Below the pieces are notes generated by a model, which was not told the DNA's origin, made no database searches, and saw only the letters and a list, made by a program, of their open reading frames with translations. Positions 8,040 through 42,844 of a stretch of DNA of 64,000 nucleotides are shown one piece after another. Made by a program: the position numbers and the translations under genes. Every line of letters begins with the position of its first letter. The stretch's first letter is position 1. The stretch comes from Candidatus Electrothrix rattekaaiensis (GTDB taxonomy: Bacteria > Desulfobacterota > Desulfobulbia > Desulfobulbales > Desulfobulbaceae): contig JAVQMD010000002.1 of NCBI GenBank assembly GCA_032595675.1, forward strand, positions 620,001 to 684,000, read 5' to 3'.

Positions 8040-8100
8040 GGATGTCTTCCCAGGTAAACGAATAATATTTAACGTGGATGAACGAATCGATTCAATCTGC

Positions 8101-8121
8101 TGTAGGGGGCCTGCCCCTACA
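8101..8121. repeat. Short intergenic palindrome of the TGTAGGGG family
   Basis: TGTAGGGGGCCTGCCCCTACA: near-perfect inverted repeat between secDF and larB; same outer arms as the elements at 2321, 46907 and 50847. Confidence 0.65.
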
Positions 8122-8237
8122 TTGCGTCGCCGATGCGAGAGGTGACAAGAAAATATTCAGGAATATACGTCAGAGAGGGATATCTTGCAACGTCGGGAAT
8201 ACATTTTTTCTTTGTTTCTCCGTATTCGGCGCAAAAA

Positions 8238-9035
8238 TTACTCTGTAGGAGGCGAAAAATGCTCTGCCGACTCGGGCTGAAATCGTTTCCTGTTGATCGC
8301 GGCAGCCATACAGGCAGCTCCGAATCCGTTGTCGATATTGACCACAGCCATCCCAGAAGCGCAGCTGTTGAGCATGCCGAGTAGTGCCGAAAATCCCCCT
8401 GCTCCAGTCCCGTAGCCGATGGAGCTGGGCACGGCGATCACCGGTGCTGGGGTCATGCCGGCCACCACTGAGGGCAATGCCCCTTCCATACCAGCCACCA
8501 CGATGAGAACATTAGCCTGTTGAAGCCGTTCTCCGTGGGCGAGAATGCGATGGATGCCAGCGACTCCGGCATCATACAGCGTGTCGACCTTATGGCCGAA
8601 ATATTTGAGGCAGAGTCGTGCTTCCTCGGCAACCGGCATGTCGGACGTCCCTGCTGTCACCACCTCCACGGTTCCTCTGCTGATATTTTCGGGGATATAC
8701 TCTTCGTTGCCGGTCAGTAAGCAGGAGGTCTCGTGGTACCTCAGTCCCTTAATTCGGGCGCAGATTTGTTCTGCCTTGCTTGGATCAATGCGGGTGGCCA
8801 GCACCACGGTTGGACGTTTAAGCATGGCCCGGAGAATGTCTACCAGCTGATCCACGGTTTTGCTTTCACCGAAAACAGCCTCAGGAAGTCCGGTGCGGAG
8901 AATGCGGTGATGATCCAGTCGAGCTGCGTCTAATACTTCAACTGGCGGTAGGCGTATTTTTTTTAGGGCCTGTTCAGGGTTTATCCTTCCGTTTTTAACC
9001 TGTTGCAGTAAAAAAAAAAGTTTGTGTTCATTCAT
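8238..9035 (-). CDS. larB: Nickel-pincer cofactor biosynthesis protein LarB
   Basis: 265 residues from the ATG at 9035; the frame stays open 22 codons further but those residues (MSLSYLPQLSCRLYH...) do not fit the family. The C-terminal half is a PurE-like domain with VTAGTSDMPVAEEA, GVAGIHRIL, VVAGMEGALPSVVAGM and VPSSIGYGTGAGGF, all typical of LarB. LarB carboxylates the nicotinate ring of nicotinic acid adenine dinucleotide and cleaves off AMP, the first step toward the nickel-pincer cofactor of lactate racemase and relatives. larC and larE are not in the window. Confidence 0.93.
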   Translation of the reverse strand: MNEHKLFFLLQQVKNGRINPEQALKKIRLPPVEVLDAARLDHHRILRTGLPEAVFGESKTVDQLVDILRAMLKRPTVVLATRIDPSKAEQICARIKGLRYHETSCLLTGNEEYIPENISRGTVEVVTAGTSDMPVAEEARLCLKYFGHKVDTLYDAGVAGIHRILAHGERLQQANVLIVVAGMEGALPSVVAGMTPAPVIAVPSSIGYGTGAGGFSALLGMLNSCASGMAVVNIDNGFGAACMAAAINRKRFQPESAEHFSPPTE

Positions 9036-9274
9036 AGAGTCATGTTCTGTGGTAAGATGGTATAATCGGCAAGACAGCTGCGGGAGATAACTGAGAGACA
9101 AACGTGTCGCAGTTCCTCTGGTCGCTTATCAACAAAAATATGTTGCCTCTTCAGTCCTTCCTGCAAAAAAGAAGGCGGATTCCAGTAGCCATGTAGCGAT
9201 TATCCTTGTATCCTTTATACATATGCGTGTAAATATATAGGTATAATCAATAATCATTCTTTGACCGCTTTACC

Positions 9275-12200
9275 ATGAAAATATTCAGCGAAAAAAATAT
9301 CGGTAAACTGATTATTCTTAATTCAAGTCTGGTGGCCCTGCTGATGTGGTTGGGAATTGTGGCGCATACCTTCTGGGATTCTGAAATTAGTCTCAAAATG
9401 GAACTCCTCCAGATGGAGGAAGACTATATAAAAAATAAAAAGATCAGTGTGCGCGAGTCAGTGCTTGATTTTATCCGCAGCATAGATATGCGGGAGAAGA
9501 CGACTCATAACGTGCTGCGGCGCACTTTGAAGGATCAGGTGGAGCAGATCCACTCCATTGCCCTGCATTTATACAAACAGAATGCAGCCACAATGGACAA
9601 AGAATCCTTGGAAAAACTGATTATCGAGACAATTCGACCCATTACCTTTAATAACGGACGGGATTATTTTTTTATCCGCTCCATGTCCGGTATCACCAAA
9701 CTCTGGCCTCCTGACCCTGAGCAGGAGGGCAAAAGTATCTATAATAACAGCAATGAAAACAGGTTGCAGGTTTTCAATAATATGTTTGCCACGGCTCGTC
9801 ATCACGGCAGCGGATTTAATGAATATCTCTGGCCCAAGCCGGGAGAGGATGAAAGCAAACTTTTTCAGAAAATAGCCTATATAAAGCGTTTCGAGCCCTT
9901 TGATTGGTATATGGGATCAGGTGATTATCTGGTTGAGGTTGAACGTGGTGCCAAGCAGCATGTTACAAATATAATTAACCAGCACGCCAGCCGGACAGAT
10001 GACGAGTACATGTTTATCCTGGATCTCCGGAGCATGAAGGGTGGTAAAAAATTCGCCACTATGCTGGTGAATCCTAATCAGGCGGATCCTTTGAATGACA
10101 TCCTCAGTGATGAGGATGACACGCAAAGGGAAAAATTTCGGGAAAAATTCCTCAACGGTCTCAAAGAACATGGTGAGGTTTTTGTCAACTATCGGGATCA
10201 AAAACCAGGGACCGATGAAGTTCGCCGCAAGATGTCCTATTTTAAACTCTACCCGAAATGGAGTTGGATCATTGCTAGAGGCTTTTATTTTGATGATCTG
10301 ATTGCTCAAATAGACCGACTCCAGGAGCAGCATAAAAAGCTTTTTCGCGAAAAGATAAAGATTTCTTTTGCTATTTTATGCTTTATTCTCCTGAGTGCGC
10401 TCTGTATCTCCCTGCTTTTTTCCCATAAAGTTCGAACGCTCTTTCTCTCCTATCGTCAGCGACTGGAAAAATCGAACCGGGAACTGACCAAGGCTATGGA
10501 CAAAGCTCATGCTGCCACTATTGCCAAATCCGAGTTCCTGGCCAATATGAGCCATGAAATCAGAACGCCCATGAACGGCATTATCAATCTCTCAGAATTA
10601 TCCCTGGAAACGGAGCTGACTGATAAGCAGGCTGATTATATGAAAAAGATTCTTTTTTCTTCCAAGAATCTTTTAGAGATAATCAACGATATTCTGGATT
10701 TTTCAAAGATCGAAGCCGGAATGCTTACCATCGAAAAGGTCTATTTTGATCTCCCAGGCCTGTTTGATAAACTCATGCTGATGTTTACTGAGCAGAGCCA
10801 ACGCAAGAAGTTACAACTCACTCTTGATTTGCCCTCGGATCTGCCGGGAAATGTTATCGGTGACCCCATGCGCTTGTATCAGGTGTTGTCCAACCTTATT
10901 GGTAATGCCATTAAATTCACCGAGCAGGGCGAGATTATCGTTTCAGCTGAGGTGGTGCAGCGTAAATTGGAACGTGCGGTTATTCAATTCACTGTGAGTG
11001 ATACTGGTATCGGGATTGCTCAAGAAAAAATAGCCCTCCTTTTTGAATCCTTTACCCAGGCGGATAATTCTACGGCAAGGAAATACGGCGGGACCGGTCT
11101 AGGACTCACGATCTGTAAACGGCTTGTCTCCCTGATGGGTGGCAAGTTGTCCGTGGAGAGTGAGGTGGACAGAGGGAGTAAATTTTCTTTTTCCCTAAGT
11201 TTCGCCCTGAATGGCTTGGGAAAAGAAAATGATAATTCCAGCGGCACAGGAGAAACCGCTGCGGCAATGGCTGCTATCCGCTATGCTCGTATTTTGCTGG
11301 TTGAGGATAATATTATCAACCAGCAGGTGGCCCAAGAAATTCTTGCCAAGGCAAACCTGCATGTTGAAACGGTCAATAACGGAAAAGAAGCGGTTGAGGC
11401 CGTGGCTGCCAGAGATTTTGATGCTGTACTCATGGATATCCAGATGCCAATTATGGATGGTTATGAGGCGACAAGGGTGATTCGTCAGGAGTTGGGAAAA
11501 ACAGATCTGCCCATCTTGGCCATGACTGCCCATGCCGTGAGCGAAGAGCGGGATAAATGCTTCCGGATCGGTATGAATGATCATATTGCCAAGCCGATTA
11601 ATCGAAATACGCTCTTTGTGGCATTAAGTAACTGGATCGGAGAAACTGCTGAACGCCATACTGGAAAACAGGCTGGAAAACAGGCAGCAGGCGTTAACCG
11701 GCTTGCTGCTGCTCCCCAAGAGAGTCATAGGAGTCAGAGTCATACATCAGATCCGCTGAGACAGCTCATTGCTGAGGCAGAGAGAGGGGAGGCACCGACC
11801 GGTATGGATTTTTCTGGAGGGTTGCAGCGTGTTGAAGGGAATGAAAAACTTTATTTGAAGTTACTCAGAAGTTTTTGTCGAGAGCAGAAAGAATCTCTGG
11901 TCAACGTACCAGAACTCGTCGAAAGGGATGATAGGAAAGATGCCAAGCATTTTGCCCATAGTCTCAAAGGGGTTGCTGGAAATATTGGCATGTCGGATTT
12001 GCAGAAATTATCTAGTCGTGCGGAACAAAAAGCGAGTAACGGGACAGCTGAAGAGTTTCAGGAAGTTTTTCAGCAGCTTTTTCAGGAGTTGCGTCAAATT
12101 CTTGCCTATCTTACGCCCCGTCTTGAGGCTTCTGAAGAGCAGGGAAAACAGGAAAAGCAGGACAAAAAGATAGGCACAACCGCTCCGGTGGATGAACATG

Positions 12201-30832: not shown

Positions 30833-32335
30833 ATGAAACAGATGAAGAATGGCGTGGCCATCGGGGCTGTGGCTCTTTTTGCCTTGACTGGTTGTGTTGC
30901 GGATGTTGCTTATGTCCCGCAAAATTCTGGATCAGAACCCTGTACTCAGGGAGAGCCTTGTGATGAAGGGCAGGTAAAACAGCAGGCTGCACAGCAGGTA
31001 GCAGCCAAAAATTTTAGTCAGGCACCTGCATCCAATGTAGCGGCTCCGGCTTATACGGCTCCTGTTGCTTCGGCTCCGAGGTATACTGCTCCTGTTGCTT
31101 CGGCACCAGCTTATCAGCAGTATCCTGATCAGGGGTATCCGGACCAAGGAGATCTCGGCGAAGGATTACCGACAAATGTTCAACCGGGTGAGTGTTACTC
31201 CCGTTGTCTTGCTCCGGCTGTTTTTGAAGATGTAGAGGAAGAGGTTGAGATTGCTCCGGCTATGGAACGTACCGAGATTATTCCTGCCGAGTACGAATGG
31301 GTGGAAGAACAGGTTGTTGCCAAAGAAGCATCTGAAGAAATTAAGGTTATTCCTGCGAAGTACGATTGGGTGGAAGAGCAGGTCGTTGTCAAGGAAGAGT
31401 CTGAAGAGGTCAAAGTTATTCCTGCTCGGTACGAATGGCAGGATGTACAGGAAGTTATCAAAGAGGGTTCCGAAGAATTTAAGGCGATTCCTGCAGTTTA
31501 CGCATGGCGTGAAGGGCAGGTTATGATTTCACCTGAGATCACCACCGTCACCATAACCAATCCCGGTTATGAAGAGGTGAAAGAGCAGGTTTTGGTCAAG
31601 GCTCCTTCTGCAAAATGGATCAAAAAAACGACGCACTGCACTCCTGAAGATATCAAGATGGGACTGACCGACTGTGATACCCTGTGTTATGTGGCGGTTC
31701 CGGCTATGTACAAAACGGTTATCAAGAAGGTACCCACCAATCTGGGCGGCGGTGCCGGTGGAGATGGTGGGCGTGAGGTAGTGGTTATCCCGGCAGAATA
31801 CAAGTCGGTGAGAACAAAGGTTGTTGTTGAGCCCGCAAGGACTGAAACCATATCTGTACCCCCGGAATATCGCAATGTAAGAAAACAGGTTGTAGTTGAA
31901 CCCGCAAGAACAGAGACGGTTGTTATCCCTGCTGAGTACAGAAATGTGCGGAAAAAGGTTATGGTTGAGCCTGCGAGGACAGAGGTGATTCCTGTTCCTG
32001 CCGAGTACAGGACTGTTAGGGTGAAAAAGCTTGTTAAAGAGGCTGAGGAAACAGTTGTTCAGGTTCCTGCAGAATACAAGACTCTTATTAAGAAAGTTAA
32101 AGTCTCCGATAGTAAGATCGTATGGCGTCCGGCTCTTTGTGAGGATGAAGCTGTTGATTCAAAGATTAGAGAGATGCAAAGTGCTCTGAGCCGGGAAGGT
32201 TTTTACACCGGAGCGGTTAACGGCGTACTGACCCAAGAGACCAACGAGGCGATTAGAGCGTATCAGATTGAACGAGGGTTGCCACAAGGCGGTGGAATGA
32301 CCCTTGAAACACTTGAGTCGTTGGGGATTTATTAA
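30833..32335 (+). CDS. Repeat-rich lipoprotein with peptidoglycan-binding C-terminus (paralogue 1)
   Basis: 500 residues. Lipoprotein signal with lipobox LFALTGC (Cys ~21), then a Pro/Ala/Tyr-rich linker (APAYTAPVASAPRYTAP). From ~115: GLPTNVQPGECYSRCLAPAV, then about ten ~23-residue repeats of type VIPAEYxWVEEQVVxKEASEE; the first four are acidic and end in EE, the last five are basic (VPAEYRNVRKKVVVEPARTE). A Cys-rich insert (HCTPEDIKMGLTDCDTLC) divides them. The last ~60 residues are a PG_binding_1 domain (MQSALSREGFYTGAVNGVLTQETNEAIRAYQ). Probably anchored in the outer membrane and touching peptidoglycan. Precedes its paralogue by 88 bp. Confidence 0.85.
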   Translation: MKQMKNGVAIGAVALFALTGCVADVAYVPQNSGSEPCTQGEPCDEGQVKQQAAQQVAAKNFSQAPASNVAAPAYTAPVASAPRYTAPVASAPAYQQYPDQGYPDQGDLGEGLPTNVQPGECYSRCLAPAVFEDVEEEVEIAPAMERTEIIPAEYEWVEEQVVAKEASEEIKVIPAKYDWVEEQVVVKEESEEVKVIPARYEWQDVQEVIKEGSEEFKAIPAVYAWREGQVMISPEITTVTITNPGYEEVKEQVLVKAPSAKWIKKTTHCTPEDIKMGLTDCDTLCYVAVPAMYKTVIKKVPTNLGGGAGGDGGREVVVIPAEYKSVRTKVVVEPARTETISVPPEYRNVRKQVVVEPARTETVVIPAEYRNVRKKVMVEPARTEVIPVPAEYRTVRVKKLVKEAEETVVQVPAEYKTLIKKVKVSDSKIVWRPALCEDEAVDSKIREMQSALSREGFYTGAVNGVLTQETNEAIRAYQIERGLPQGGGMTLETLESLGIY

Positions 32336-32423: not shown

Positions 32424-33704
32424 ATGTTGAAGAAAAGAAATTTTATGGTTGCTGCCGCGTTCCTGTTCGCGGTATCTTCACCGGCGGTAGCGCAACAGTA
32501 TGGGCAGATTGACCCTGGTCAATATGCTAATGAGGGCTTTCCGACCAATGTTCAGCCTGGTGAGTGCTACTCACGCTGTCTTGCCCCGGCCGTTTACGAG
32601 GACGTAGAGGAAGAAATCGAGATAGCACCTGCTATGGAGCGAACAGAAATCATCCCGGCTGAGTACGAATGGGTTGAGGAGCAGGTTATTGCTAAAGAGG
32701 CTTCTGAAAAAATTGAGACACTTCCAGCGAAATTTGAATGGAGGAATGAAGAGGTTGTCGTCAAGGAAGCATCAGAGGAGATCAAAGTTATTCCGGCCCA
32801 GTATGAGTGGCGTGACGTGCAGGTCGTTGTCAAAGAGGCTACCGAGGAGTTGAGATCTGTTGATGCCAAGTATGACTGGATTGACGAGCAGATCATGATT
32901 TCTCCAGAGGTCGTCACTGTCACCATCACCAATCCCGGTTACGAGGAAGTGAAAGAGCAGGTTTTGGTCAAGGCACCTTCGGCGAAATGGATCAAAAAAG
33001 CAACCCATTGTTCTCCTGAAGATATCAAAATGGGGCTGACCGACTGTGATACCCTGTGTTATGTAGCGGTTCCCGCTATGTATAAGACAGTTATCAAGAA
33101 AGTACCGACAGGTGACTGCGGCGGCGTAGTTGATGGATGTCGTCAGGTAGTCGTTATTCCTGCAGAATACAAGGTCGTTCGGAAAAAAGTCGTTGTTGAG
33201 CCTGCAAGGACTGAGACCGTATCTGTACCTGCAGAGTACAAAACTATGCGTAAGCAGGTCATGATTGCGCCATCGAGTACAGAGGTTGTAACAACTCCAC
33301 CTGTTACCCAGATGATTCGCAAGAAAGTAATGGTCGCTCCGTCCCAGACACGATCAATCCCTGTACCTCCTGAATACAAGTCTGTCAGGGTTAAGAAACT
33401 GGTGAAGCCAGCTGAAGAGAACATTATTACAGTTCCGGCCGAGTACAAAACCATTGTTAAAAAGGTTAAGGTCAGCGACAGTAAAATCGTTTGGAAACCT
33501 GCTCTTTGTAAGGATGAGCTTGTTGACTCAACTATTCGTCAGGTACAGTCAGCCCTCAGCCAGCAGGGTTATTACTCCGGTCTGATCGACGGTCAATTGA
33601 GTCAGGCAACCCTTGACGCTATCAGAGCTTTTCAGGTTGAGAACAACCTTGCTCAGGGCGGCGGGCTGACCGACGAGACTGTAGAAGCTTTAGGGATTTA
33701 CTAG
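32424..33704 (+). CDS. Repeat-rich exported protein with peptidoglycan-binding C-terminus (paralogue 2)
   Basis: 426 residues. Ordinary Sec signal (MLKKRNFMVAAAFLFAVSSPAVAQ), no lipobox, so soluble in the periplasm or secreted, unlike paralogue 1. It lacks the Pro/Ala linker, but from EGFPTNVQPGECYSRCLAPAV on it matches paralogue 1 throughout: acidic repeats (IIPAEYEWVEEQVIAKEASE), Cys insert (HCSPEDIKMGLTDCDTLC), basic repeats (VVIPAEYKVVRKKVVVEPART) and PG_binding_1 end (VQSALSQQGYYSGLIDGQL). The repeats have diverged more in one basic unit (TTPPVTQMIRKK). A tandem duplication with different anchoring suggests two partners in one envelope structure. Confidence 0.85.
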   Translation: MLKKRNFMVAAAFLFAVSSPAVAQQYGQIDPGQYANEGFPTNVQPGECYSRCLAPAVYEDVEEEIEIAPAMERTEIIPAEYEWVEEQVIAKEASEKIETLPAKFEWRNEEVVVKEASEEIKVIPAQYEWRDVQVVVKEATEELRSVDAKYDWIDEQIMISPEVVTVTITNPGYEEVKEQVLVKAPSAKWIKKATHCSPEDIKMGLTDCDTLCYVAVPAMYKTVIKKVPTGDCGGVVDGCRQVVVIPAEYKVVRKKVVVEPARTETVSVPAEYKTMRKQVMIAPSSTEVVTTPPVTQMIRKKVMVAPSQTRSIPVPPEYKSVRVKKLVKPAEENIITVPAEYKTIVKKVKVSDSKIVWKPALCKDELVDSTIRQVQSALSQQGYYSGLIDGQLSQATLDAIRAFQVENNLAQGGGLTDETVEALGIY

Positions 33705-33958: not shown

Positions 33959-36106
33959 TCAAGAGATTTCGTTCTTCAACACACCGGGTAGCGTAATCGT
34001 AAAAAACACTCCGGTCCTCCCATCAGAAAGGTTCTGCACACTTACTCGCCCATCATGATGATCCAGCACTGTACGAACAATATATAATCCAAGGCCTAGG
34101 TGAGGTAACTTATCCTTGACTGCTCGATTGGAAATCATGGAATGAAAGATTTGTTGCTGCATATCCGGTTCAATAATCGGTCCCTGATTGATAACGAGCA
34201 GGGATATATCGTTTTCATGCTGCTCAAGCTGAAGTTCAATCGCTGTGCCTGGAGTATGAAAAGATACAGCGTTTTCGACAAGCTTTTCTAAAGCCTGACG
34301 TAACCGTACGGGATCACCGTTCACCAATACTTCATGTTCAGGTGCTTGATAGAGGATATCGACCTTGTTAAAGGCGGGTCGCCAACCATGCTCAAGCCAT
34401 ACTGATACAGCTCTACCGAGATCGAACAACTCCATACTGTCCAGCAGTAGGGCATTTTTCAAGGTAGTGGCCTCTCGAATTGAGGTGAGAAGCTCTTCCA
34501 TCCTCTGAACATCGCGTTCGACCCACTGAATATATTCCATAATACGATCCGAGGGATTCGTATCAAGCTGTTCTTGACGAAGGTTTTTCACTGATGCGGC
34601 AATGCCAGCCAAGGGCGTTCGCATTTCGTGCTCAAGGTTATCGGCCATTTGCTCGCGGTGCTCGATCTGCTGCTGGAGCTGACTGAGCATGGAATCCAGG
34701 GTCCGACCTAAATCAGCGATTTCATCACTTGCCGAATTTTTGTTAATGGTATTAAGTATCCGTCCGTCAGGAGTGATGGCCGAAGCCGCCTGATTGCGCA
34801 GGCGGCGAATGCGTGCGGAAATGCGGAAGGCAAAAAAGAGCAGAATACAGCCGCCAAAGAGAAAGGCGACAACAGAGAGAGAAATGGTCTCTTCAATTAA
34901 ACGGTTGCTGAGAGAAAGGATGGAGTTCGTGGTCTGCTCGACAACCACGGCACCTATAACCTGATCCTGTTCGTATAATGGGGTAATGGCGGCCATGACC
35001 TCCACTTGGCCGTCCTCCATTAAATAGCTGGTAACAGAATGTTTACCGGCAAGTCCTTCACGGATTCCGTGGAGATCCAGCTCAGTCGGCTGAGAGGCTT
35101 GGTCTTTAAATTCCGTTAAAAAGGGGTTGATAAAAAAGCGATAGAGAGGGCGCATGAGCTCATTTATACGAAGAGAAAGCTTGTTATTATGATCTGTTGG
35201 TATTTCTGAGGTGCGCAGGCTGCCTACCTGAGCTCTCACCCGTTGATTGCGATCAACGATCCGAATACGCGCATATGGGCGATCAAGAGATTTCAGTATT
35301 TCTTCAATCGGAGTTGAAGTCGTCAGAAGCAGGCCCGGGGCCTTGTCGTCCTGTAAATTAGAGGTGCCGATTAACGCCTTAATATCTCTGGATTCGACAT
35401 CATCGACATCAGCCATAGTAAAGGCCAGTTTATTGCCGAGCAGCTCCAGCGGGATACGGATTTCAAGAATATAGCCTCTGTCGGTCTGGTGCCAAACACC
35501 TTGGATTCGCTGCTCGCTGACAGGGAACTTGATCGGGACATCGGGCATGAGAAAAGCATTCACCCAACCCTGCTCATGCGCTGTCATTAAATATTTTTTC
35601 CGGCTTTGATTGTCCTCAATCACAATCTGCAAATGATCCGAACGATCAAGACGTAACGAGTTTTTGCTCCGATAAATGACATGATCATCCTGGACGTCAA
35701 AGAGCGCATAAAGGTATTTATCCTGCTTGCCAGCAAGATGTCGAAAATTAAGGGATTTGAGGGCGTAGTTTCCTTCCGAACTGATCAGATGCTCTTTGGC
35801 AAATTCTTCCGCTTCAGCCAGTTCCGGGCGCCAATCATCAAGATTTCCGTCTAACCTGATGGTGTTGCTCAATTGAAAGAGATAGAGATCACGGTCCTGA
35901 TTCAGGCCATGAAATTGTTCTCTGTCAAAAAGATCGTTCCGGTCGGTCAATGCGGCTGAAACCGCCTGGGCGGTAAGACTCAGGGTCTCCTGCTGGCTGG
36001 TGATCAGGCTGTTTTTCAGGGTATTGTTCAGGCGCATTCCCAGTAAAGGGAAGAGGAGGAGCAGAAGGGAAAGGAGGGCGAGTTTTAGGCGCAGAGAGAA
36101 ACGCAT
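33959..36106 (-). CDS. Sensor histidine kinase of the dedicated marine sortase system
   Basis: 715 residues. First helix at ~8-26, a ~390-residue periplasmic region whose DGNLDDWRPELAEAEEFA and DRSDHLQIVIEDN segments resemble carbohydrate-binding CBM9-like folds, second helix ~400-425 (LSVVAFLFGGCILLFFAF), HAMP-like stretch, then HisKA with NLEHEMRTPLAGI (phospho-His) and an ATPase domain with KLVENAVSFH and HLGLGLYIVRTVLDHH. This layout matches the kinase of the dedicated sortase system found in marine proteobacteria. It follows its response-regulator gene on the same strand. It probably senses a surface or cell-envelope cue and controls the target/sortase genes. Confidence 0.9.
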   Translation of the reverse strand: MRFSLRLKLALLSLLLLLFPLLGMRLNNTLKNSLITSQQETLSLTAQAVSAALTDRNDLFDREQFHGLNQDRDLYLFQLSNTIRLDGNLDDWRPELAEAEEFAKEHLISSEGNYALKSLNFRHLAGKQDKYLYALFDVQDDHVIYRSKNSLRLDRSDHLQIVIEDNQSRKKYLMTAHEQGWVNAFLMPDVPIKFPVSEQRIQGVWHQTDRGYILEIRIPLELLGNKLAFTMADVDDVESRDIKALIGTSNLQDDKAPGLLLTTSTPIEEILKSLDRPYARIRIVDRNQRVRAQVGSLRTSEIPTDHNNKLSLRINELMRPLYRFFINPFLTEFKDQASQPTELDLHGIREGLAGKHSVTSYLMEDGQVEVMAAITPLYEQDQVIGAVVVEQTTNSILSLSNRLIEETISLSVVAFLFGGCILLFFAFRISARIRRLRNQAASAITPDGRILNTINKNSASDEIADLGRTLDSMLSQLQQQIEHREQMADNLEHEMRTPLAGIAASVKNLRQEQLDTNPSDRIMEYIQWVERDVQRMEELLTSIREATTLKNALLLDSMELFDLGRAVSVWLEHGWRPAFNKVDILYQAPEHEVLVNGDPVRLRQALEKLVENAVSFHTPGTAIELQLEQHENDISLLVINQGPIIEPDMQQQIFHSMISNRAVKDKLPHLGLGLYIVRTVLDHHDGRVSVQNLSDGRTGVFFTITLPGVLKNEIS

Positions 36107-36176: not shown

Positions 36177-36869
36177 TTATGGCTGCCAGCGATATCCCAT
36201 GCCGTATTCGGAACGAATAGCCTTAAAATCAGAATCAACATCCTGGAATTTATCTCGGATTCTTCGGATATGTGCAGCAATCGCATTATTCGTAACAATG
36301 ACGCTCGCCGCCTCCATCAGCTGCTCGTGATTTTTGACATGTCCCGGCCGTCTGGCAAGGCAGACCAGTATCCAGAATTCTGTCAGAGTCAGGCTGATCG
36401 GATGGCTCTTCCAATACACTTCCTTCCGATCTTCATCAATCTGCAAGTCCTTATGCTGGATAATCTTGTTTTCCGTTGTATTGCTGCGTAAGGCCTCAAC
36501 GGTTCGAAACAGAGCAGATATTCTGGCGGGCAGAAAGTCCAAGGTTGTTGTGTCCTTGGTAAGGTAGTCCCAAGCACCCAAGCGCAGGCCGGAAACCCGA
36601 TCCAGATCTGAATTGCGAGCTGTGAGAAAGATGATAGGAATAACAGGGGATAAAGAGCGAAGGTGTTGGCAAAGATCAAAACCACCGGCCATTTCCTCTC
36701 CAAGCATGACGTCCAAGATGGCAAGGTCGGGCAGAGAGCGGGCAAAGGCGGACATGGCTTCAGGCTTGCTGCTGTAGGTGGCCACGTCATAGCCTTCGCG
36801 CTGAAGGGCCTGTGCATAATTGGCCTGCAGCCTGGAATCATCTTCAACAAGGGCGATTCGGTAGGTCAT
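36177..36869 (-). CDS. OmpR/PhoB-family response regulator of the sortase system
   Basis: 230 residues. Receiver domain ~1-120: acidic pair EDD (10-12), phospho-Asp in LAILDVMLG (~53), Thr in FLTARN, Lys in YLTKDT. C-terminal winged-helix domain with HPISLTLTEFWILVCLARRPGHVKN and NAIAAHIRRIRDKF recognition helix, ending in YGMGYRWQP. OmpR/PhoB-type regulators bind direct repeats of about 11-bp period, as seen upstream of the target (38979-39036) and of the small paralogue (41953-42010). First gene of the pair with the kinase, 70 bp apart. Confidence 0.93.
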   Translation of the reverse strand: MTYRIALVEDDSRLQANYAQALQREGYDVATYSSKPEAMSAFARSLPDLAILDVMLGEEMAGGFDLCQHLRSLSPVIPIIFLTARNSDLDRVSGLRLGAWDYLTKDTTTLDFLPARISALFRTVEALRSNTTENKIIQHKDLQIDEDRKEVYWKSHPISLTLTEFWILVCLARRPGHVKNHEQLMEAASVIVTNNAIAAHIRRIRDKFQDVDSDFKAIRSEYGMGYRWQP

Positions 36870-37129: not shown

Positions 37130-37726
37130 TTAATAGGGCCTCTGACCGACCATGTTTCCTCGAGGAGAGTAATGGCATACCCACATCTGTGCTTTATCGG
37201 AGCAGAAAGTCATGCCGCACCCGACCTCTGCCGTACTTTTCCAGACCACCTGGGTGTAATGTCCACAGACACCGTGACAGCTGTTGCTTGCATAATCATA
37301 ATCTTTCACCTCATCCCCCCAAGCATCAACCACGTTCTGCTCGGTTATCTTCTGTCTTGACGAAGTGCCGTTAGATCGTTGCGCTGCTCCTGCCCAATAA
37401 ATATTTTCTCCGTTAGTGCCTGTGCTGTGCCTCACCCTGCAACCGCTCCGGGCCAGCTGGTCAGCCCATTGCTGGGCACTGGCAGTCAAATCATTCGACC
37501 ACTTGAGGGCAGGCACACCGGTCTTGCTGCGCCATTGATTATGTGCTGCAACCATAGTCGCCGGATCAATGATGGATTTTTTTTTTGCAGTAGAGGTGTT
37601 CCAGACTATCTTCGTAGTTGCCAGTGTAGGGGAAGATTCTTCTGGGGTAAGAGAACTGTTTGTTGGACTCGTTACGCAAGATGTGAGGAGGAATCCTGAA
37701 AGGAACGTTATAATCTTTTTATTCAT
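37130..37726 (-). CDS. CAP-domain (SCP/PR-1 family) lipoprotein
   Basis: 198 residues. Lipoprotein signal with lipobox GFLLTSC (Cys ~17), a Ser/Thr/Pro linker, then the CAP domain (~55-198): VAAHNQWRSKTGVPALKWSNDL, GENIYWAG, VVDAWGDEVKDYDY, and the signatures CGHYTQVVWKST and VGCGMTFC...WVCHYSPRGN. CAP proteins are secreted, and those known bind lipids or act in cell-surface interactions. AGGAGG lies 10 bp before the ATG. Preceded by a ~320-nt leader beginning with a probable c-di-GMP riboswitch, so expression may follow the cell's surface-attachment state. Confidence 0.93.
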   Translation of the reverse strand: MNKKIITFLSGFLLTSCVTSPTNSSLTPEESSPTLATTKIVWNTSTAKKKSIIDPATMVAAHNQWRSKTGVPALKWSNDLTASAQQWADQLARSGCRVRHSTGTNGENIYWAGAAQRSNGTSSRQKITEQNVVDAWGDEVKDYDYASNSCHGVCGHYTQVVWKSTAEVGCGMTFCSDKAQMWVCHYSPRGNMVGQRPY

Positions 37727-38312: not shown

Positions 38313-38801
38313 TTACTTGGCAAACTTATGAACCTTAATATAGTCGTTCGCAGCATTCTCGGTGTGACAGGCTATGCATTTTTCAGGCCTGCCTGCCTCT
38401 TGAACTTCGCCGGTAGGACTGTATTGAGCCCAGAACCAGTCACCCGCAGCAGGGTTGTAACCTTTTACTTTGTACATAATCGTGACAGCCTTCACTTCAT
38501 CTGCCGGACTCAGGTTATATTTAACCACCATTGAGCCGTTTTGAAGCGGTGGTTGTTTTGAGTCCAATGCCAGTTGATTGACATAGATTTTGTGTTTTGG
38601 ACCATGCGGACCTTTGCTATTGTACATGCCTTGGTGATCCGGCCAAAATGACCATGTTTCGAACGGATGAGTGTCAGTAATATACTTCCACACCGCTTCG
38701 GCTTCAGCTTCCGGTTTCGGCATCTCGCCCAGCTGAGGAAAAAATGTGCAACCCAGCAATATGCTGCCGACGAAACAACCAGTAGATATTTTTCTCAACA
38801 T
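38313..38801 (-). CDS. Cytochrome P460-family monoheme lipoprotein
   Basis: 162 residues from the ATG at 38801, which has AGAAGG 8 bp upstream; three codons more are open from a GTG. Lipoprotein signal with SILLGC (Cys ~18). The body matches the P460 fold: FETWSFWPDHQGMYNSKGPHGPKHKIYVN, GSMVVKYNL, VTIMYKVKGYNPAAGDWFWAQYSPTGEVQEAG and the heme motif CIACH near the end. P460 proteins oxidise small nitrogen compounds; members of this wider group also act as periplasmic redox proteins. It sits inside the sortase locus. Confidence 0.9.
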   Translation of the reverse strand: MLRKISTGCFVGSILLGCTFFPQLGEMPKPEAEAEAVWKYITDTHPFETWSFWPDHQGMYNSKGPHGPKHKIYVNQLALDSKQPPLQNGSMVVKYNLSPADEVKAVTIMYKVKGYNPAAGDWFWAQYSPTGEVQEAGRPEKCIACHTENAANDYIKVHKFAK

Positions 38802-38978
38802 GTGACACACCTTCTTTTGAATAGTGTTGAAATGACAAATTGTTGTGTTTTAGGGATGAAAATTAGCCTGTCGAAACCCTTTTGAAACTATGTTTTTTTA
38901 TTGTGAGGCTGAGGCTTATAATTATTTACTACCACATTTTTTTTCGATAGTACAATTTTTTACTGGCGAAGTTCATTT

Positions 38979-39052
38979 GTCACAGACTGTCATTTTTCTT
39001 GAAAGACACGTCATCATCCTACTGAAGGTCCGTCATGATCATCGTTCATACT
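38979..39052 (+). promoter_or_regulatory. Array of four GTCAT-type boxes plus -10 element before the sortase target
   Basis: GTCAC at 38979, GTCAT at 38989, 39010 and 39032 (spacings 10, 21, 22), then CATACT at 39047-39052 as a -10 candidate, 15 bp from the last box; there is no good -35. The same pattern with the same spacings stands at 41953-42026. It resembles tandem binding sites of an OmpR/PhoB-type activator (compare the TGTCA core of Pho boxes). Confidence 0.75.
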
Positions 39053-39102
39053 GTGTGCAGAAACGAAAGAAGCAGTTTTTATCAACACAGGAGGATGTAT
39101 TC

Positions 39103-41328
39103 ATGACATCGGAAGAGGAAAAAAGAATTGTACGGACCCTGTCTGTGGATCCCGGTTATTTAATGGTAACAATTTATACCCTTGGTATGGCGATGCTCAT
39201 CCTGTTCGGATGGTTCGGTAATGCCGGTGCTGTACCCGGTGGAGAAAGCAGGTCGAGCGAAGCTGTCCGACAAGAAAGACAGGAAACCCCGATGCCTGAG
39301 TTAACACCTGATGCGGTACAACAGGGCGAGTTGCTCCTGCCCGGAGCAGAATCGGGAAAATATCGCCCAGCCCCCATGCTCTCTATGGATGTTGATATAA
39401 GGGTGAGCGGCATAGTTGCACGGGCTACGGTCAAGCAGCAGTTTACCAATGACTCTGCCGAATGGGTTGAAGCCTTGTATGTCTTCCCGCTTCCTGACGA
39501 GAGTGCTGTGGATCATCTGGAGATGCGGATTAACGACCGTATTATTATCGGAAAAATTCAGAAAAAAGAAGAGGCACGCCAAACCTATGAGGCGGCGAAA
39601 AAAGAAGGGAAAAAAGCCTCATTGCTCTCGCAGTTGCGGCCTAATATATTTACCACGTCGGTCGCCAATATCGGCCCCGGAGAAACCATCGTTATTCAGA
39701 TTGAATATCAGCAGGTTGTGCAGCGGCAGGACAGAGTTTCCTCGTTGCGTTTTCCAATGGTTGTCGGGCCTAGATATACCCCGGGATTTTCTTCCGTTAC
39801 TGATTTTTTTCCTGGAAGCGGAAAAAAGGAAGGCGGAGAAGACGGAAATACCGCAAGCGCACAGAAAATAATGGAAGCATCAACGGGAGCATCGCCAACC
39901 GATGTTCACGCTCCTGCCTTGGAAGAACCTTCCGTTGTCGGGCCGGATGAAAAACCGGTGAACCCGGTAAGCCTTCATGTGAATCTTGCCGCCGGTATAG
40001 AACTCTCCCGAATCGACAGTCTCTATCACGGTATTACAAGCAAAAAAAATGAGGACAGCAGCCTGGATATCCGTTTTACCGGAGAGGTGAAAGCGGACCG
40101 TGATTTTGTCCTGGAATGGGAGCCGGAAAAGGCGCAGGTTCCGACGACGACTCTGTTCAGCGAACAGCGGGGTGGAGAACGCTATATGCTGCTCATGGTC
40201 ATGCCGCCGGAGCAGGAGCAGCAGGAACCCCTTGCCCGTGAAGTTGTCTTTATCCTTGATACTTCTGGTTCTATGGGCGGTGAATCCATCAGGCAGGCAA
40301 AAACAGCCTTGCTCATGGCAGTGAAGCGTATGCGTCCGCAGGATCGATTCAATGTCATTGAATTTAACAGTATTGCCAGAGCATTATTTCGTGATAGCAA
40401 GGCGGGCAGCCGAGAAAACGTAGAGCAGGCACTGGCCTTTATTGATCAGCTTGAGGCCGACGGCGGCACTGAAATCAGGAAGGCCCTGAAATTAGCCTTG
40501 GACGGCAAACAGAGGCACGAACGGATTCGCCAGCTTGTTTTTTTGACTGACGGCTCTGTCAGCAATGAAGAAGAACTCTTCACCTTGATTCATGATCAAC
40601 TCGGAGATTCGCGGCTGTTCACCGTCGGGATCGGATCGGCCCCGAACAGCTATTTCATGACCAGAGCCGCAACCCTGGGCAGGGGCAGTTACACCTTTAT
40701 CGGCAAGTTGGAAGAGGTCCGGGAAAAGATGACCAACCTGTTTGCCATGCTTGAGCAGCCTGCTGTTACAAATCTTCAGCTGATCGGAGCTGACGGTTTT
40801 GAAGTCCTTCCTGCTCCGCTCCCAGATCTCTATCAGGGGGAACCCCTGACTGTGGTTATGAAAGGGCAGGGGAAACCAGACAAACTGCTACTGTCCGGGA
40901 TGCAGGGCGGATTAAAACCCTGGCAGGCAGCAATCGATACTGCCGCCTTTGCCGACAGACCGGGTATCGCTGTGCTTTGGGCAAGAAAAAAAATCAGGAT
41001 TTTGATGGACAGTCTTGCCTCGGGGGCGAATTCGCAACAGGTGGAACAGAAAGTGACAGAACTGGCTTTGACCAATCATCTTGTCAGTCGTTATACCAGC
41101 TTGGTGGCTGTGGAAGAAAAGATCTCACGGCCCGGTGATTCTGACGGTCCAAATGCGTCGTTGCAAAAGCAAAAGGTGAAAACTAACCTGCCTGCGGGCT
41201 GGGTGCATGAAAAGATTTTTGCCGGAGGAGCTGATACCGCAACATCATCAGCTCTGTTCCTGGGTATAGGTATCTTCTTACTGTCATTATCCGCCTTTCT
41301 TTTCTGGATGCAATGGAGGAGACAATGA
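39103..41328 (+). CDS. Marine proteobacterial sortase target protein: VIT + von Willebrand A domains
   Basis: 742 residues from the ATG at 39103, with AGGAGG upstream; the frame runs further up to 38890 but that part lacks protein character and holds the promoter. N-terminal helix (DPGYLMVTIYTLGMAMLILFGWFG), VIT domain ~90-230 (ATVKQQFTNDSAEWVEALYVFPLPD), vWA domain ~375-540 with MIDAS FILDTSGSMGG and LTDGSVSNEE, then a beta domain. C-terminus: NLPAGWVHEKIFAGGADTATSS, a hydrophobic helix and WRRQ tail, i.e. a sorting-signal layout. It is presumed to be cut and anchored by the adjacent sortase; motif is not LPxTG. Confidence 0.93.
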   Translation: MTSEEEKRIVRTLSVDPGYLMVTIYTLGMAMLILFGWFGNAGAVPGGESRSSEAVRQERQETPMPELTPDAVQQGELLLPGAESGKYRPAPMLSMDVDIRVSGIVARATVKQQFTNDSAEWVEALYVFPLPDESAVDHLEMRINDRIIIGKIQKKEEARQTYEAAKKEGKKASLLSQLRPNIFTTSVANIGPGETIVIQIEYQQVVQRQDRVSSLRFPMVVGPRYTPGFSSVTDFFPGSGKKEGGEDGNTASAQKIMEASTGASPTDVHAPALEEPSVVGPDEKPVNPVSLHVNLAAGIELSRIDSLYHGITSKKNEDSSLDIRFTGEVKADRDFVLEWEPEKAQVPTTTLFSEQRGGERYMLLMVMPPEQEQQEPLAREVVFILDTSGSMGGESIRQAKTALLMAVKRMRPQDRFNVIEFNSIARALFRDSKAGSRENVEQALAFIDQLEADGGTEIRKALKLALDGKQRHERIRQLVFLTDGSVSNEEELFTLIHDQLGDSRLFTVGIGSAPNSYFMTRAATLGRGSYTFIGKLEEVREKMTNLFAMLEQPAVTNLQLIGADGFEVLPAPLPDLYQGEPLTVVMKGQGKPDKLLLSGMQGGLKPWQAAIDTAAFADRPGIAVLWARKKIRILMDSLASGANSQQVEQKVTELALTNHLVSRYTSLVAVEEKISRPGDSDGPNASLQKQKVKTNLPAGWVHEKIFAGGADTATSSALFLGIGIFLLSLSAFLFWMQWRRQ

Positions 41329-41891
41329 AGATAAATTGGTCATGGAAAATTATTCTTTTTCCTGCAATCGTCGGGATACTCTGCTTAGGTAACGGGCTGT
41401 GGATACACGGTAAGGCTTTTTTGGCTCAAGTGCTTCTGCAACGGGCCTGGGCACAGACGCAGGTTCGGGGAGAATCGGTTAAACCGTGGCCTTGGGCAGA
41501 TACTTGGCCGGTGGCGAGGCTACGCACGGAAAAATATAACCAGGATCTTATCGTGCTTGCAGGGCAGTCCGGTCAGGCCCTTGCTTTTGGGCCGGGAATG
41601 CTGGAAACAGGGGGCAGGCCGGGTCAGCTAGGTTCCTGTATTCTGGCAGCCCACCGTGATACCCATTTCAGTTTTCTCCGCAAAGTACACGTAGGAGATA
41701 TTTTCACGCTGGAAGACAGGCAAGGTAAGCAATGGCAATACCGGGTAAATACCACGGAAATACGAATGGCTACAGATCTTTATCTGGATAATGAAGCAAC
41801 CTCGCAGTTGGCCTTGGTCACCTGTTACCCCTTTCAGGCCCTGAGTTCAGATGCCGATCAACGCTATGTTGTTCTGGCAGACAGAATGTAG
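41325..41891 (+). CDS. Class GN (marine-type) sortase
   Basis: 188 residues from the ATG at 41325, overlapping the target's stop as ATGA; GGAGG stands upstream inside the target gene. Signal-anchor helix ~8-28, then the sortase beta barrel: catalytic His in ILAAHRDTHF, Cys in ALVTCYPF and Arg in DQRYVVLA. This sortase class is paired one-to-one with a VIT/vWA target in Gram-negative bacteria. Presumed to cleave the target's C-terminal signal in the periplasm; what it is attached to in a Gram-negative cell is unknown. Confidence 0.95.
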   Translation: MKINWSWKIILFPAIVGILCLGNGLWIHGKAFLAQVLLQRAWAQTQVRGESVKPWPWADTWPVARLRTEKYNQDLIVLAGQSGQALAFGPGMLETGGRPGQLGSCILAAHRDTHFSFLRKVHVGDIFTLEDRQGKQWQYRVNTTEIRMATDLYLDNEATSQLALVTCYPFQALSSDADQRYVVLADRM

Positions 41892-41952
41892 AGACCTGTA
41901 ATTTTGTTTTTTTATTTGTTATTTTGGAGTATTATCCGGTACAAATTTTTTA

Positions 41953-42026
41953 GTCATAATTTGTCATTATTCCTCAACAGCAAGTCATTATTACTCAAGG
42001 ACTCCGTCATGGTCTTGGTGCATAAT
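41953..42026 (+). promoter_or_regulatory. Second array of four GTCAT boxes plus -10 element
   Basis: GTCAT at 41953, 41963, 41984 and 42006 (spacings 10, 21, 22) and CATAAT at 42021-42026, 15 bp from the last box. Identical geometry to the array at 38979-39052; both begin shortly after TACAA-T6. Controls the small membrane protein and probably the zinc-ribbon gene. Confidence 0.78.
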
Positions 42027-42316: not shown

Positions 42317-42844
42317 ATGAAACAAAGCATTGAAGCGGAGTTGCAATATTGCCCCGATTGCATGGATGAATACCGAGCGGAAATCACAACCTGTGCCGCT
42401 TGCAATATCCCCCTGGTCAGTGGTAAAAAAATGCTGGAGGCCCAGAAAAATCCAGCACGGGAACAGGCAGGGCGTAATATGGTGATCAGCCCGGATGATG
42501 AGCTGGTGAGTATCAAAAGGGGGCCTCTTGTTCAAATGAAGGATTTTCAGTCCATGCTCAAACGGGAAGGCATTCCGTCACTGGCCGTGAATGAAGACAG
42601 TAACTGTGGACAAGGAAGTTGCGGGACCAATTTATTTGTTCAGATCAGAAAAAGCGATCTTCAGGATGTCGTGGCGATTTTGGAGCGCGATCATGTCCGC
42701 TCAACAGGGTTGGAGGATCATGATTTGTCCACAGCCGGGGCTGTCATTGATACAGCAGCGGAGCAGGCAACCTGTCCAGCCTGTGGCTACAGCTTTCCGA
42801 CTACCGAAGCCTCCTGCCCTGATTGTGGGCTTTGTTTCGCCTGA
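42317..42844 (+). CDS. Double zinc-ribbon protein with DUF2007-like domain
   Basis: 175 residues. N-terminal zinc ribbon (YCPDC...TTCAAC), middle ~55-130 a DUF2007-like ferredoxin-fold domain (DFQSMLKREGIPSLAVNED; LFVQIRKSDLQDVVAILERDHV) containing CGQGSCG, and a C-terminal zinc ribbon (TCPACGYSFPTTEASCPDCGLCF). Starts 10 bp after the small membrane protein stop, so the two are co-transcribed under the box array. Role unknown; a cytoplasmic regulator or adaptor is plausible. Confidence 0.8.
   Translation: MKQSIEAELQYCPDCMDEYRAEITTCAACNIPLVSGKKMLEAQKNPAREQAGRNMVISPDDELVSIKRGPLVQMKDFQSMLKREGIPSLAVNEDSNCGQGSCGTNLFVQIRKSDLQDVVAILERDHVRSTGLEDHDLSTAGAVIDTAAEQATCPACGYSFPTTEASCPDCGLCFA

Follow-up and report, generated by a model that had tools for sequence, protein, structure and literature searches.

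A conserved four-box array and the surface-protein regulon predicted for its adjacent two-component system in Candidatus Electrothrix rattekaaiensis and relatives

The 64,000-nucleotide stretch of Candidatus Electrothrix rattekaaiensis DNA analysed here (contig JAVQMD010000002.1, positions 620,001 to 684,000; hereafter the window) carries two copies of a promoter-proximal array of four GTCAY boxes, one upstream of a sortase target gene and one upstream of a gene for a small protein, in a locus that also encodes a response regulator (RR) of the OmpR/PhoB type and a sensor histidine kinase (HK). Comparison with related genomes suggests that these arrays are operators of the adjacent two-component system, with the RR predicted to bind them and to activate the promoters, a reading that we hold with a probability of roughly 0.86. 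The array is very probably the switch through which the RR controls a small set of surface-protein genes. Most of the genes predicted to be under array control have an N-terminal signal in common, here called the DPG signal. Judged from sequence, the operator is real, highly conserved and part of a known but little-studied system, and the link to the DPG signal is its surprising part.

Two arrays in one locus

Array 1 consists of one GTCAC box and three GTCAT boxes followed by CATACT, and array 2 of four GTCAT boxes followed by CATAAT (Table 1). Read directly in the sequence, the box positions given for both arrays in an earlier note on this DNA are exact to the base, as are the spacings of 10, 21 and 22 bp and the start of the putative -10 element 15 bp after the start of the last box. 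With up to three mismatches allowed, the two arrays are the only matches in the window (0.02 expected from shuffled sequence). The exact four-box pattern occurs twice in the 4.48 Mb of this genome, with no match for the reversed-pattern control; three boxes with at most one mismatch are found at both window arrays and at four other sites, again with none for the reversed control. The four-box array is far beyond chance. A profile, R1, was built from 42 arrays of other genera with Electrothrix omitted. It finds the two window arrays as the only strong sites in this genome (Table 1); every other site has an E-value of 0.0069 or worse.

Conservation among relatives

The main comparison set comprised 257 genomes of the same class, 32 of which, all in one order, encode a protein above the cut-off of TIGR03788, the family of the sortase target. 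All 30 loci examined have boxes 2 to 4 at spacings of 21 and 22 bp ahead of the target gene, with two mismatches at most, in a search that also admitted other spacings at the cost of one mismatch. Box 1 lies 10 bp ahead, with at most one mismatch, in 29 of these loci and is off by one base in the other (L033). The remaining two TIGR03788 genomes (G109 and G110) have the array as well. The alignment of upstream regions that the earlier note had proposed as a check thus finds the array conserved. In G118, where the sortase is separated from the target, it has an array of its own.

Across the 257 genomes, R1 finds 58 strong sites (E-value of 1e-6 or better) in 47 genomes, and the next site scores 1.2e-4. 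An extra candidate with this value (G078:C1:4617235) was inspected and rejected, as there is no four-box array there. In a sample of 395 genomes of the phylum, at least 16 of them from the class, only the window genome (G000) has R1 matches at 1e-4 and no array lies outside the order, both among the matches listed.

Fetching 55 loci around the RR gene gave an array with at most three mismatches within the fetched stretch in 30 of them. The 25 loci without one comprise 17 from other bacterial groups (L159, L160, L162-L170, L172-L175, L177 and L180), for which the search covered the fetched stretch of up to about 20 kb each, one with a partial RR (L179) and seven of the order (L139, L148, L151, L154, L155, L158 and L178). 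For most of these seven the array is on another contig or out of reach, or its box 1 is shifted by one; L139 (genome G083) has no array at all. Among the gammaproteobacterial RR loci, a target match was found in L159 only.

Co-occurrence of array and regulator

Presence of the RR was scored in the 257 genomes as a match to the window protein at an E-value of 1e-50 or better. Strong arrays occur in 47 genomes and the RR in 47, with both in 45. The two array genomes without the RR are G080, which is 69% complete, and G100, in which the RR frame ends early. When the four-box pattern with at most two mismatches was searched irrespective of the RR, it was found in 52 of the 257 genomes, namely in 44 of the 47 with the RR and 8 of the 210 without it; the reversed control gave 15 matches. 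Eleven genera (82 genomes) have both RR-positive and RR-negative members, and within these RR and array agree in 80 genomes, the exceptions being G080 and G100. A further control is provided by 15 genomes with a target relative below the TIGR03788 cut-off (about 380 to 451 bits). The RR is present in four of these (G083, G154, G156 and G158), three of which have the array, and the R1 scan finds no strong array in the 11 others.

An array occupies the divergent gap next to the RR gene, at a distance of 66 to 343 bp, in 32 of the 47 array genomes; control of the RR by itself appears possible there. The RR gene of the window has no GTCAY array immediately ahead of it, and autoregulation was rejected in this case. 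The other 15 array genomes comprise two without the RR and 13 in which it is farther away or on another contig. Array and RR are on different contigs in G105, G107, G152 and at two of the three G093 sites; the distance between them is 8.5 to 21.7 kb in G092, G129, G099 and G093, and 1.0 to 6.5 kb in Electrothrix. Co-occurrence across such distances appears hard to explain through neighbourhood alone, and action in trans is favoured because 13 of the 45 genomes with both have no array beside the RR gene.

The pattern is less specific when reduced to three boxes. Exact three-box matches occur in 50 of the 257 genomes, 31 with the RR and 19 without it; the latter include G080 and G100, and the other 17 are taken as chance (loci L039, L041, L042 and L054 were inspected). 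The genome-wide scan suggested in the earlier note came out in favour of its proposal for strong four-box sites, which go with the RR; three boxes alone are unspecific.

Of 20 aligned RRs from the order, 18 have a recognition-helix pattern, TNNAI.AH[IV][RK]RIR, that is absent from all 11 gamma- and alphaproteobacterial RRs compared, whose loci (stretches of up to about 20 kb) contain no array at three or fewer mismatches.

Loss of parts of the system was also observed. RR, target or sortase frames are broken in several relatives (L186 in G100, L247 in G102 and L197 in G113); G102 has only fragments of all three and no longer any strong array, which would fit decay of the system as a whole.

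Anatomy of the array and promoter

Anatomy was examined in 61 arrays with at most two mismatches, of which six were dropped as chance (L100, L103, L104, L105, L191 and L194; two mismatches each, from the RR-negative genomes G011, G034, G035, G057, G253 and G147), leaving 55. Two four-box rows with two mismatches, G103:C439 and G128:C1:2307873, were set aside. The approximate consensus is TTGTCATAATYT-GTCATWTTT ... TGTCATNATY ... TGTCATNNTC ... TWTANT, in which the box letters are conserved partly through the selection of arrays by those letters. Conservation outside the selected letters is seen in a near-constant T at the eighth base of each box (0.90, 0.98, 0.96 and 0.98 at columns 7, 17, 38 and 60) and in the -10 element (columns 68-73), with A at 0.90 in column 71 and T at 0.94 in column 73. 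A weak TCA lies between boxes 3 and 4 (columns 43-45; 0.63, 0.61 and 0.49), and since it is 11 bp from the TCA of either neighbouring box it may represent a degenerate half-site; around column 21 the only trace is a T (0.69). No -35 element was found in the 55 arrays, the best match scoring 2.16 of 6, with 2.46 for shuffled sequence. With the -10 element placed at -12 to -7, the box starts would fall at about -80, -70, -49 and -27.

The same-strand repeats at 10, 21 and 22 bp, in both window arrays and in the 55, lie near multiples of 10-11 bp and fit the tandem direct-repeat spacing of OmpR/PhoB-type sites, a likeness that had been drawn from the window alone. PhoB sites at phoA overlap the -35 position (PMC3348028), and for this reason the layout can be compared to that of a PhoB-dependent promoter and may work like one, yet it is not a pho box.

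Proposed mechanism and alternative explanations

In the mechanism that we propose, the kinase would sense a signal and then phosphorylate the RR, which would bind head to tail along the four GTCAYNNT boxes, on roughly one helix face (0, 10, 31 and 53 bp) and probably as tandem dimers. The promoter has a -10 element only, and the last box would stand in for the -35 element; the bound RR would recruit RNA polymerase and so induce the target-sortase operon as well as the small DPG protein together with the zinc ribbon protein DG. In this scheme we infer the binding, the dimer register, the phosphorylation, activation over repression, and the signal.

The most obvious competitor for the array is PhoB. 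The TGTCAT core is also that of the Escherichia coli pho box, given as CTGTCAT in PMC4415409, both are direct repeats, and the last box sits where PhoB sites overlap the -35 position (PMC3348028). However, pho repeats are described as 11 bp apart (PMC4415409), as opposed to 10, 21 and 22 bp here, and an exact 11-bp TGTCAY pair occurs once in this genome, on a different contig. The PhoB box of D. vulgaris is given as a (c/t)GT(n)AC repeat with a 4-bp spacer (PMC3333781), which GTCAC fits and GTCAT does not. The earlier note had held that arrays at many phosphate-regulated genes would point to PhoB; the two window arrays are the only strong sites in this genome, so that phosphate promoters appear to carry none, and across genomes the array follows the RR. 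The best TIGR02154 match in this genome scores 232.4, under the cut-off of 296.2. Judging by the spacing, the scan of this genome and the distribution of the array, we consider binding by PhoB very improbable. It is unlikely, if somewhat less so, that the RR binds the array and represses the promoters, or does both. Box 4 covers the -35 position, where a bound protein could block polymerase, but a promoter without a -35 element should be weak unless helped, and boxes that reach upstream would rather resemble an activator layout. Scarcely credible is the idea that array 2 is a functionless leftover of promoter duplication. The two promoters and their DPG segments are clearly paralogous, but the arrays agree at 24 of 26 positions in boxes and -10 element against 23 of 48 in the spacers, and array, small DPG gene and DG gene are kept in Electrothrix and Electronema-genus genomes that lack target and sortase. 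Identity in the flanks is 14 of 30 bases upstream and 11 of 50 downstream.

Several observations count against control by the adjacent RR. The 42 sites that are members of R1 score well in it by construction, and the Fisher test of RR against array (2.9e-45) is overstated since the genomes are kin. The RR occurs without a strong array in G083 and G137, and the eight RR-negative genomes with the four-box pattern comprise, besides G080 and G100, six judged to be chance, each with two mismatches. This genome has five other matches to OmpR-type regulators, the comparison across genomes covering the adjacent RR. The 21/22 spacing leaves half-sites missing, with traces at columns 43-45 and 21 only. 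Finally, the loop before the recognition helix is three residues shorter than in BaeR and RegX3. In PhoB this loop is the part known to contact sigma, and because of the shortening the contact may differ here from the PhoB way.

The earlier note had taken the array to be the regulon signature of the dedicated sortase two-component system. Its assignment to that two-component system is supported by the 45 genomes with both, while 'sortase regulon' proves too narrow because 15 of the 47 array genomes have no class GN sortase match, of which about 10 look real.

The predicted regulon beyond the sortase

The class GN sortase was found in 34 of the 257 genomes. The array accompanies it in 32; the other two are G006, which is 63% complete, and the decayed G102. 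Several of the sortase-less array genomes represent contig ends or decayed loci. Those that look real are four of genus g12 (Electronema), E. gigas (G079), E. aarhusensis (G076), G092 and three of genus g35 (Desulfofustis-type). Genus g12 and E. gigas retain the RR, the array, the small DPG protein and the DG protein, and in E. aarhusensis a broken remnant of the target separates the two arrays, which are 337 bp from each other.

In genus g35 the array is upstream of a VIT/VWA protein that in L137 scores 427.1 bits to TIGR03788, under the cut-off. The tails of these proteins look PEP-CTERM-like by eye (VPEP, a hydrophobic stretch, arginines), and no PEP-CTERM model in NCBIfam or Pfam matches them. 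In L137 the gene after the target encodes exosortase K (TIGR04287, 98.5 over a cut-off of 55). Among eight genomes chosen for an exosortase check, PF09721 matches at the equivalent position in G156 and G158, over the cut-off, and in G154, under it; G092, G093, G118 and G156 also encode ordinary exosortases outside the system.

The anchoring enzyme under the kept RR and operator is therefore a class GN sortase, exosortase K, or none found. Since the predicted regulon persists in sortase-less cable bacteria and beside exosortase K, it is not tied to sortase, and the constancy of RR type and operator while the anchoring enzyme varies argues that the RR serves VIT/VWA and DPG proteins.

Most target C-termini (L009-L037) have a sorting signal of the form xTAT ahead of a hydrophobic stretch and a basic tail; among those listed, a full LPxTAT occurs in L013 alone.

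The DPG signal

The DPG signal, DPG[NY]x[LM]xxxY...AxA, is N-terminal, and its DPG opens a hydrophobic stretch. A reading frame with this signal follows 48 of the 55 arrays; the Y is present in 46 of these 48, and the signal mostly ends A-x-A. The seven arrays without it precede three g35 targets, a TPG target (L089), a broken target (L112, first array), a sortase (L029) and, in the case of the second L118 array, a protein whose tail resembles a sorting signal. In the other direction, each of the 37 DPG..[LM]...Y signals that precede a hydrophobic stretch has an array with at most two mismatches 146 to 237 bp ahead, as counted in 1.09 Mb of DNA from 75 sources chosen around the system rather than in whole genomes.

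Most genomes have the segment as part of the target; in cable bacteria it is free-standing, also where there is no sortase. In G118 a stand-alone DPG protein adjoins the RR and the target has a different N-terminus, from which it follows that the DPG segment is apparently a separable module. Tentatively, and with more doubt than confidence, every Desulfobulbales gene with a DPG signal might be under the array, the signal being a Gram-negative counterpart of YSIRK or a segment that reports to the kinase. If so, it would send proteins to a special site of the envelope, or alternatively the membrane segment, or a small periplasmic peptide cleaved from it, would report back to the kinase.

Two further DPG proteins were observed on separate contigs, one of 127 aa with a sorting-like tail and its own array (L182, G093:C146, minus strand from 2310) and one of 84 aa with an array (L181).

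Relation to known systems

The locus resembles the proteobacterial dedicated sortase system (TIGR03784, TIGR03785, TIGR03787 and TIGR03788), with the same four proteins in one place. Target and sortase exceed the curated NCBIfam cut-offs and belong to their families. RR and HK have TIGR03787 and TIGR03785 as their best families, with nearly full-length matches, but both score under the cut-off; a further difference is that several genomes without sortase retain array and RR. Next after these families, RR and HK match the CreB and CreC models of NCBIfam. The cre tag of CreB/BlrA, TTCACN6TTCAC as given in PMC4689548, is likewise a direct repeat, but the GTCAY boxes at 10, 21 and 22 bp do not conform to it.

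With the YSIRK/GXXS signal peptides of Gram-positive surface proteins, too, sortase substrates bear a short motif in their signal peptide. The motif here is different (DPG[NY]x[LM]xxxY, not YSIRK/GXXS), and the window's small DPG protein, unlike those substrates, has no sorting tail. Vault-type VIT/VWA proteins are described with LPXTG, PEP-CTERM or GlyGly-CTERM tails (PMC3237569). The targets here belong to the same family with exchangeable sorting tails, and what differs from that account is that RR type and operator stay the same when the tail is exchanged (genus g35, exosortase K).

A literature search, which left most subscription journals outside its reach, gave no publication on the regulation of Gram-negative sortase systems or on this operator among the matches listed, and none linking Electrothrix with sortase. 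The operator motif would allow the regulon to be listed from sequence, and points to a signal segment, not the sortase, as what unites the regulated genes. The cells of a cable-bacterium filament have a common envelope; the DPG and DG genes that these bacteria retain without sortase offer a lead.

Genes of the locus

The sortase start codon overlaps the target stop codon, and the sortase is therefore probably in the array 1 operon with the target. Likewise, the DG gene begins 10 bp after the small DPG gene, and because of this short gap the two are probably on one transcript. The TIGR03788 match starts at residue 93 of the target, leaving the DPG segment outside the family model. The small DPG protein had been called a small paralogue of the target; this stands for the N-terminal DPG/membrane segment and does not extend to the rest of the 741-aa protein, to which it has no likeness.

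Table 1. Features of the locus and of the related locus L137 (positions are those of the window, except in the last row)
Feature	Position	Strand	Evidence and remarks
Operator array 1 (predicted)	38979..39036	+	Boxes at 38979, 38989, 39010, 39032; upstream of sortase target; R1 E-value 2.8e-9
Putative -10 element CATACT	39047..39052	+	10 bp past last box of array 1; without -35 match
Operator array 2 (predicted)	41953..42010	+	Boxes at 41953, 41963, 41984, 42006; upstream of small DPG protein; R1 E-value 3.5e-12
Putative -10 element CATAAT	42021..42026	+	Array 2 promoter; read in sequence, with column conservation
Sensor histidine kinase (HK)	33959..36106	-	Best family TIGR03785, 542.5 bits (cut-off 612.2); CBM9-like stretch in sensor part
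Response regulator (RR), OmpR/PhoB type	36177..36869	-	Best family TIGR03787, 311 bits (cut-off 335.7); proposed array binder
VIT/VWA sortase target, 741 aa	39103..41328	+	TIGR03788, 722.5 bits (cut-off 551.65)
DPG signal segment of target	39148..39231	+	N-terminal motif comparison
Class GN sortase	41325..41891	+	TIGR03784, 201.7 bits (cut-off 158.25)
Small DPG protein, 78 aa	42070..42306	+	No NCBIfam or Pfam family; only N-terminal segment in common with target
Zinc ribbon (seleno)protein DG	42317..42844	+	NF049953, 217.6 bits (cut-off 130)
Exosortase K and VIT/VWA protein (L137)	7006-7725 and 7745-9730	-	Share array; adjoin TIGR03787-like RR

Between the RR and the target, the window also encodes a CAP-domain protein (37130-37726, minus strand) and a cytochrome P460-like protein (38313-38810, minus strand). 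Adjoining the HK on its other side are two tandem paralogues on the plus strand (30833-32335 and 32424-33704), which are rich in repeated PAEY-type segments and both have a C-terminal peptidoglycan-binding domain.

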